A model generated the notes under the pieces. The model searched no databases, was not told the origin of the DNA, and saw only the letters and a program-made list of their open reading frames with translations. Shown piece by piece: positions 28,124-30,491 of a stretch of 38,965 nucleotides of DNA. The position numbers and the translations under genes were made by a program. Within the stretch, counting starts at the first letter, position 1. Every line of letters starts with the position of its first letter. Location of the stretch: NCBI GenBank assembly GCA_014728215.1, contig WJLZ01000162.1, positions 1 to 38,965 on the forward strand, given 5' to 3'. The stretch comes from Chitinivibrionales bacterium. GTDB taxonomy: Bacteria; Fibrobacterota; Chitinivibrionia; Chitinivibrionales; WJKA01.

Positions 28124-28139
28124 TGGCATATCTTTTGCA
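28124..28139 (+). promoter_or_regulatory. Sigma-54 promoter of the flagellin gene
   Basis: TGGCA (28124-28128) and TTGCA (28135-28139) match the -24/-12 consensus with ten bases between GG and GC. The site is nearly identical to the one before flgJ. The predicted start is near 28150, giving a leader of about 95 bases. Confidence 0.8.
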
Positions 28140-28153
28140 ATTGAAAACAGCAC

Positions 28154-28238
28154 GCAAGGAAGCAAGAGTCGTCAGGATGACGTATGGAGCGCAGTCAGGA
28201 TAAGTACCGGCTGCAAGGAAGCATACTCATCATAAGGA
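28154..28238 (+). promoter_or_regulatory. Flagellin leader with six GGA motifs (candidate CsrA-binding region)
   Basis: GGA triplets lie at 28158, 28175, 28186, 28198, 28217 and 28236; the last is the ribosome-binding site AAGGAGG. Two 11-base copies of GCAAGGAAGCA (28154-28164, 28213-28223) and two copies of GTCAGGAT (28171-28178, 28194-28201) make it a repeated array. CsrA binds GGA in loops and would block ribosome access. csrA and its antagonist fliW lie downstream. Confidence 0.6.
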
Positions 28239-28245
28239 GGGTACT

Positions 28246-29091
28246 ATGTCTCGTATCAACCATAACATACCCGCAATGGTAACGGGTACTGCGTTGCGTC
28301 AGGTAGGACGAAAAATGTCGAAGTCACTGGAGAAACTCTCAACCGGCCTTCGTGTTAACCGTGCTGCTGATGATGCTGCCGGACTGAGTATTTCGGAACA
28401 GTTACGCACCCAGTGTCGCGGTCTGGCAATGGGCATCAGAAACGCTCAGGACGGCATCTCACTTCTGAATATCGCCGAAGGTGCTTTGATTGAAGTTGAA
28501 GATATGTTGCAGCGGTTGCGTGAACTCAGCATACAGGCGGCCAATGATACCTTGACATCGAAAGAACGCGCTTATGTACAGATCGAATTCGATCAACTTC
28601 GGACGGAAATCGATCGTATTGTTAACGGTACACAATACAACAGCATGAAACTTCTTAACGGAAGTGATGTCTGGGCTAACGGCGGAATTCTTCATGTCGG
28701 CCCTAACGATAACAGCGACGGCGCCGATGTCGTTACCATTACGATTACCGGTGTGGATACTACCGCCATGGGTATCAGCACTGCCGATAACGTGTATGTC
28801 ACCAGCCAGACCGACGCCACCGGTGCCATTTCTGCGCTCGATATAGCATTGAGCAGTGTAAATGCCCTTCGAGCCGATCTCGGTGCGAAGGTTAACCGTC
28901 TGGAACATGCGCTGGTTAACCAGGAAAATCAGGAACAGAATATGACTGCTGCCGAATCGACCATCCGTGATACCGACTTCGCAAAGGAAACAACCACCTT
29001 CACACGGAACCAGATTATTCAACAGTCGGCCACAGCCATGCTTGCCCAGGCGAATATGGTGCCCCAGAGTGTTCTTGGATTGCTGCAATAA
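28246..29091 (+). CDS. fliC: Flagellin
   Basis: Flagellin is the filament subunit. The 281-residue protein has complete conserved ends: N-terminal SRINHNIPAM, SLEKLSTGLRVNRAADDAAG and IRNAQDGISLLNIAEGAL, and C-terminal VNRLEHALVNQENQEQN, RDTDFAKETTTFTRNQI and MLAQANMVPQSVLGLL. The variable central D2/D3 region is very short (about residues 140-200), so this is a minimal flagellin. The ATG follows AAGGAGGGTACT. It is transcribed from the sigma-54 site and probably controlled by CsrA. Only one flagellin gene is in the window. No fliD or fliS follows. Confidence 0.97.
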   Translation: MSRINHNIPAMVTGTALRQVGRKMSKSLEKLSTGLRVNRAADDAAGLSISEQLRTQCRGLAMGIRNAQDGISLLNIAEGALIEVEDMLQRLRELSIQAANDTLTSKERAYVQIEFDQLRTEIDRIVNGTQYNSMKLLNGSDVWANGGILHVGPNDNSDGADVVTITITGVDTTAMGISTADNVYVTSQTDATGAISALDIALSSVNALRADLGAKVNRLEHALVNQENQEQNMTAAESTIRDTDFAKETTTFTRNQIIQQSATAMLAQANMVPQSVLGLLQ

Positions 29092-29155: not shown

Positions 29156-29182
29156 AGGCATTCGTCTTTCTGGCGAATGCCT
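29156..29182 (+). terminator. Hairpin downstream of the flagellin gene
   Basis: Perfect 9-base arms AGGCATTCG and CGAATGCCT flank a 9-base loop about 65 bases after the flagellin stop. No T-run follows, so it may terminate weakly or protect the 3' end of the message. Confidence 0.5.
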
Positions 29183-29295
29183 TACAAGCAGCCTCGGAAA
29201 AATGCCGGCCGATTTCTTGACAGCTATTCAGGCTTAAAAGCATTTTATTACAAAACTGTTATTCCTAGTATGCCCGTGTGAGGAGCTGTTATTGT

Positions 29296-29715
29296 ATGGG
29301 TGATTTCTTTAAAGAGCTGGTCTACGAAAAAGAAGATGTCATCACTTTTCCGTCCGGCATACCGGGTTTTGAAAATAATAAAGAATTTATTCTTCTTCAA
29401 ATCCCCGAGTATGCTCCCTTTGAGTGGCTGGCTTGCACAGACGGTTCCCGGCTCAGATTTGCCATACTCAATCCCATGTTATTCAGACCCGATTATAATC
29501 CTAACATGACAAAAGAGCAGCTCGAAGAGCTCCATATCGAAAAACCCGAAGATATCCTGTTGTATTCGATTATAACTATCAGCGAAAATCCTGCCGAATC
29601 AACGGCGAACCTTATTGGGCCGATCATTATCAATAAAACAAAACGTCTGGGAAAGCAGGTCGTTGTTGAAGATGACCGTTATACCACACGGGAACCAATT
29701 TTGAGGAAGAAATAA
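29296..29715 (+). CDS. fliW: Flagellar assembly factor FliW
   Basis: FliW binds flagellin or CsrA. When flagellin is exported, freed FliW sequesters CsrA and relieves repression of flagellin translation. The 139-residue protein has family motifs ITFPSGIPGFENNKEF near the N-terminus, FEWLACTDGSRLRFAILNP, DILLYSIITISENP and the C-terminal NLIGPIIINKTKRLGKQVV. The ATG at 29296 follows GAGGAG by ten bases; a GTG at 29278 is in frame but lies before that site. csrA follows three bases downstream, the standard arrangement. Confidence 0.95.
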   Translation: MGDFFKELVYEKEDVITFPSGIPGFENNKEFILLQIPEYAPFEWLACTDGSRLRFAILNPMLFRPDYNPNMTKEQLEELHIEKPEDILLYSIITISENPAESTANLIGPIIINKTKRLGKQVVVEDDRYTTREPILRKK

Positions 29716-29718
29716 CGC

Positions 29719-29955
29719 ATGCTTGTATTAACTCGAAAATTGGGTGAATCAATCCGAATTGGCGATAATATTGTTGTAAAAGTTGTCGATCTCGATAACC
29801 GTCATGTAAAACTCGGTATCGACGCCCCGAAGAATATTGCCGTGAACCGTGAAGAAATCTATGAGAGAATTCAAAAGGAAAACAAAGCTGCCTCTGAAGC
29901 TCAGGATTCAAAACTCAAAGATATTGCAAACGCCCTTCGGCAATCAAAAGAATAA
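29719..29955 (+). CDS. csrA: Carbon storage regulator CsrA
   Basis: CsrA is a dimeric RNA-binding translational regulator. The 78-residue protein has the full family pattern MLVLTRKLGESIRIGDNIVV with VKLGIDAPKNIAVNREEIYE, then a charged tail longer than that of E. coli CsrA (61 residues). R6 and R44-type RNA-binding positions look conserved (TRK and NREE). It is next to fliW and downstream of a flagellin leader with six GGA motifs, so flagellin translation is the probable main target. Confidence 0.96.
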   Translation: MLVLTRKLGESIRIGDNIVVKVVDLDNRHVKLGIDAPKNIAVNREEIYERIQKENKAASEAQDSKLKDIANALRQSKE

Positions 29956-30176: not shown

Positions 30177-30491
30177 ATGCAACAAGGAAATAATGTTAGG
30201 GGTATTTCTATCGGTGATGTTTCTAAAATCTGCGGTGTGCCGTCACATACAATACGCTACTGGGAAAAAGAGTTCGGATGCTTTCTTGCTCCAAAACGTA
30301 CGGCAGGGAAGCAGCGGCGGTATACCGAAAATAATATTCAATGCCTGCTTCATATAAAAAAACTACTCTGGGATGACGGATTCACAATTACAGGAGCTAA
30401 AAGAATGATTAAAAACAATTCACTATTCCCCTTGCTGGCCGCAGACAAAGACATAAAGGAAATTCTCAATCCATTAAGCAATGCAGCATAA
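30177..30491 (+). CDS. Small MerR-type helix-turn-helix regulator
   Basis: The 104-residue protein is a MerR-family DNA-binding domain: GISIGDVSKICGVPSHTIRY forms the helix-turn-helix, followed by WEKEFGCFLAPKRTAGKQRR (wing) and a LHIKKLLWDDGFTITGAKRM helix. It lacks the C-terminal effector domain of classical MerR proteins, so it resembles the short MerR/MlrA-type regulators. ATG 30177 follows AAGGGGA. It lies between csrA and a glycosyltransferase gene, 62 bases upstream of the latter, and may regulate filament or surface genes; the target is not known. Confidence 0.88.
   Translation: MQQGNNVRGISIGDVSKICGVPSHTIRYWEKEFGCFLAPKRTAGKQRRYTENNIQCLLHIKKLLWDDGFTITGAKRMIKNNSLFPLLAADKDIKEILNPLSNAA

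Follow-up and report, generated by a model that had tools for sequence, protein, structure and literature searches.

A conserved flagellin leader of the Chitinivibrionales with candidate sites for two CsrA dimers

Introduction

Flagellin mRNAs are described targets of the RNA-binding protein CsrA. The Bacillus subtilis hag leader carries two CsrA sites (PMC7652899, PMC6529632), CsrA limits the level of the hag transcript, and flagellin homeostasis in this organism depends on a ratio of roughly one CsrA dimer to each flagellin transcript (PMC6529632). The flaA leader of Campylobacter jejuni contains two hexaloop sites, 21 nt apart, that are bound by CsrA, and this leader also titrates CsrA (PMC4894983). 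Bridging of two sites by CsrA works at distances of 10–63 nt, with an optimum of about 18 nt (PMC7652899, PMC4894983), and the flhDC mRNA is protected from its 5’ end by CsrA (PMC7652899).

Here, we analyze a flagellin leader in a 38,965-nt contig (hereafter the window) from a 5.0-Mb genome (G000) of the order Chitinivibrionales, phylum Fibrobacterota, whose relatives are titled Chitinivibrionales or Chitinispirillaceae. Our best reading of the sequence is that the leader is a variant of the known CsrA-FliW flagellin system built for two dimers, not one. Literature searches found no prior description of a CsrA-FliW circuit in Fibrobacterota, a phylum to which this locus would extend the circuit.

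Results

The flagellin gene (28246–29091, 281 aa; all features are on the forward strand) matches flagellin models, has identifiable relatives, and is followed by fliW (29296–29715), encoding the CsrA antagonist, and then by csrA (29719–29955), which starts 3 nt past the fliW stop. The original prediction had named both downstream genes, and profile matches above the cut-off confirm them (NF009793 for FliW, TIGR00202 for CsrA). FliW aligns with the FliW partner in structure 5dmb, and the 78-aa CsrA aligns through residue 75, C-terminal part included, with 5dmb_D, the CsrA chain of that FliW-CsrA structure. The arginine in its NREEIY stretch lines up with the one in CsrA and RsmE chains already known; by sequence, with a conserved RNA-binding core and a C-terminal extension, this CsrA is of the FliW-binding kind. 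The predicted sigma-54 leader also stood: a -24/-12 element matching the consensus (TGGCATATCTTTTGCA) lies at 28124–28139, placing the predicted +1 near 28150, and a sigma-54 DNA-binding domain is encoded in the genome.

Six GGA triplets start at 28158, 28175, 28186, 28198, 28217 and 28236, upholding the count first proposed for 28158–28238. The repeats noted with them are likewise present, as two exact 11-base copies of GCAAGGAAGCA (28154–28164 and 28213–28223) and two copies of GTCAGGAT (28171 and 28194), and the last GGA lies, as described, inside the Shine-Dalgarno (SD) sequence AAGGAGGG (28234–28241). By itself the count is weak evidence, being only modestly unusual: shuffling the leader with its dinucleotide composition kept yields six GGAs in 0.3% of cases and a pair of CANGGANG motifs in 0.24%, six GGAs within 83 nt recur at several further places in the window, and the whole leader showed no unusual overall folding stability against shuffles (z −0.63). 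We instead accept the array as a real feature because it is conserved across relatives.

A flagellin search recovered the same leader between the sigma-54 promoter and the flagellin gene in 22 genomes of the order, including G000, that fall into six family groups. In every one of the 22, the promoter agrees with the 12-position consensus at 11–12 positions. Two of these genomes (G006 and G027) carry fliW-csrA on another contig, because the contig bearing the flagellin comes to an end. Of 40 genomes in the order, 19 matched a spaced DNA pattern that hit nothing in controls, and a covariance model run on 168 Fibrobacterota genomes returned the same 22 at E ≤ 1.7e-13, with the next match at 0.003. 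Each genome has one strong copy, always immediately 5’ of this flagellin, and the model found no second strong copies that might act as sponge RNAs in the 168 genomes; Spirochaetota loci examined with it gave weak matches only. Column identity is 88–93% in the sites, or 88–95% with the stem arms included, versus 35–51% in spacers. The tree for the order in which the array was gained or lost is poorly resolved and is compatible with one origin. Several genomes have fliW-csrA and lack the array, which is therefore dispensable for CsrA-FliW control.

Four of the six GGAs belong to conserved candidate CsrA sites. Site 1 (28154–28163), near the mRNA 5’ end, is a GC-AAGGAA-GC hexaloop (CANGGANG) with the consensus GC-ANGGAN-GC, and its GGA and C-G closing pair are present in 22/22 leaders. 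Site 2 (28170–28182) is a pentaloop hairpin, CGTC-AGGAT-GACG, also conserved in 22/22, with an alignment consensus of GTC-AGGAN-GAC plus a variable outer pair. Its 4-bp stem is 97.7% paired across the 22-leader alignment, and the outer pair occurs as five standard types (G-C, C-G, G-U, U-A and U-G) with both sides changed in six rows, a covariation backed by shuffle and slid-window controls. In the small RNA RsmZ, hexaloop sites are combined with A-GGA-X pentaloop sites of lower affinity (PMC4005645), which suggests that site 2 binds less well than an ideal hexaloop would. Site 5 (28212–28223) is a TGC-AAGGAA-GCA hexaloop, again CANGGANG; UGCA.GGA.GCA is found in 22/22 leaders, and CTGC-ANGGAN-GCA is invariant outside the N positions. 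The SD GGA is present in 21/22, G025 being the one relative without it. The remaining two triplets, at 28186–28188 (missing in many relatives) and 28198, vary or vanish, reducing the six proposed sites to four. A short reading frame of 8 codons at 28176, upstream of the flagellin, was rejected, as it is not conserved in relatives.

The four sites form two pairs, each within the spacing suited to one CsrA dimer. GGA-to-GGA spacing between sites 1 and 2 is 17–19 nt in 22/22 leaders, despite divergent spacer sequence, and between site 5 and the SD it is 15–23 nt. The recent duplication that had been suggested is dismissed, because both GCAnGGAnGC sites span the order and their N positions vary independently; in the congener G001 the two read GCACGGAAGC and GCATGGAAGC. 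On this evidence the exact 11-mer match is a shared CsrA consensus plus chance.

Between the site pairs lies a conserved stem, H3 (28191–28214, GCAGTC...GGCTGC), which holds the unconserved fourth GGA (28198) partly inside the stem. The H3 arms GCAG/CUGC are almost invariant, 93.9% of alignment cells are paired, and the local fold has a z of −2.87. The 3’ arm CUGC also serves the site 5 hairpin as its 5’ arm, and because UGC is shared the two structures are mutually exclusive. Predicted energies favor H3 by about 3–6 kcal/mol in most relatives, so that site 5 is usually predicted to be single-stranded, a context in which a lower CsrA affinity is expected. Sites 1 (whose stem is a short 2 bp) and 2 form unevenly in predicted folds, G000 included. 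The f7 genomes that lack the array have a longer site 5 hairpin (e.g. CUGC-ACGGAA-GCAG), and in array genomes the base 3’ of the site 5 GCA is never G. We infer a shift from a plain site 5 hairpin to a competing pair.

The 22 array leaders contain three C-G-closed GGA hairpins in 16 cases, two in 3 and four in 3. In 58 flagellin leaders taken from other phyla, chiefly Bacillota and Spirochaetota, such hairpins upstream of the SD number one in 44, none in 11 and two in 3, and 94% of random windows have none. A single hairpin and the SD also make up the leaders of fliW-linked flagellins from a family beyond the order. Three paralogous flagellins of the window’s genome (L002, L003 and L004) each have their own GGA hairpin and SD GGA, and the whole flagellin set of the genome may be under CsrA.

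Discussion

The conserved hairpin sites, the linked fliW-csrA pair and the C-terminal extension of CsrA back the FliW-CsrA control that the original prediction had put forward, and on sequence grounds the assignment to the family of CsrA-FliW-controlled flagellin leaders is strong. Both csrA and fliW are present in the genome and linked to flagellin, and a hairpin GGA site stands upstream of a GGA at the SD as in hag- and flaA-type leaders. We consider it very probable that CsrA-FliW control acts through these leader sites. CsrA would bind the 5’ leader at its conserved GGA hairpins and block the SD, and FliW, freed upon flagellin export, would take CsrA away and relieve repression. As each pair is at dimer-bridging spacing, two CsrA dimers can load on the leader, and we think it somewhat probable that they do: one dimer on site 5 and the SD would repress translation at the ribosome site, and a second would assist it from sites 1 and 2, at the mRNA 5’ end. 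Repression could be graded or cooperative, as originally proposed.

The leader apparently doubles the usual two-site design, giving a new layout to an already known mechanism. It shares with hag the placement of CsrA sites 5’ of and over the SD, the adjacent fliW and csrA and the CsrA C-terminal extension, but where hag has two sites and about one dimer, the present leader, predicted to be transcribed from a sigma-54 promoter, has four conserved sites with a conserved stem between the pairs. With C. jejuni flaA it has in common ANGGA hexaloop hairpins that are spaced for a dimer and conserved through compensatory changes (PMC4894983); the flaA leader, however, is 45 nt long with two hairpins, one over the ribosome-binding site, and is thought to bind one dimer, whereas here a leader of about 96 nt carries three upstream hairpin-type sites plus the SD. 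Hexaloop and pentaloop GGA hairpins in series are also found in RsmZ/CsrB, which take up several CsrA/RsmE dimers (PMC4005645). Those are free small RNAs, in contrast to this mRNA 5’ leader, and an independent sponge RNA of that type was rejected, the leader being contiguous with the flagellin start codon and without a match to any Rfam family. Site number exceeds that of described flagellin leaders, but six is not unprecedented: the E. coli pgaA leader has six CsrA sites extending over the SD (PMC7652899), on another gene and without FliW, whereas the present architecture is conserved order-wide.

The 5’ pair might mainly be a CsrA sponge, titrating the protein from other flagellar mRNAs, or a 5’-end clamp that shields the end of the mRNA from decay or opens it to decay, with site 5 and the SD controlling translation; we give this less than even odds. 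In most relatives about 9 nt separate the site 1 GGA from the predicted +1, the start site itself being a prediction, and titration by flaA (PMC4894983), protection of the flhDC 5’ end (PMC7652899) and limitation of the hag transcript (PMC6529632) provide precedents, with the paralogous single-hairpin leaders of the same genome as potential titrated targets. This explanation is compatible with the two-dimer reading on CsrA binding and differs on the purpose of the 5’ pair, which may lie in titration or mRNA stability. A fuller version, which we regard as tentative, has the 5’ clamp setting mRNA lifetime or titrating CsrA while the second dimer controls translation by way of a toggle: the identical GCA strands 28191–28193 and 28221–28223 would compete for UGC 28212–28214 and H3 would tune site 5.

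It is rather unlikely that repression is of the ordinary two-site kind, with site 5 and the SD alone mattering and sites 1 and 2 redundant or raising local CsrA. Leaders of Bacillota, Spirochaetota and array-less Fibrobacterota (f7, f11) do consist of essentially one hairpin plus the SD, but sites 1 and 2 and their 17–19-nt spacing are conserved to the same degree as site 5. That the block is instead a DNA element (an activator or enhancer site, in keeping with its position directly 3’ of the sigma-54 promoter) or some other RNA element with incidental GGAs is very improbable, given that hairpin 2 covaries, the conserved parts are CsrA-type loops, Rfam returned no match and the upstream reading frame is unconserved.

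If the two-dimer reading is true, the leader would give a different set point or a sharper response than in B. subtilis, and its conservation across Chitinivibrionales offers a natural test of the effect of CsrA site number.

Across the order, fliW and csrA co-occur without exception, both being present in 33 genomes and neither in 7 (G005, G010, G015, G033, G035, G036 and G038). Some of these seven encode flagellin-like proteins; either flagellin control must differ in them or the assemblies are incomplete. Within the window, the flagellin-fliW gap contains a hairpin-forming sequence (29157–29183, GGCATTCG...CGAATGCC) without a T run, which may uncouple expression of flagellin from that of fliW-csrA or stabilize the flagellin 3’ end, and a small MerR-type regulator (30177–30491) lies immediately 3’ of csrA.
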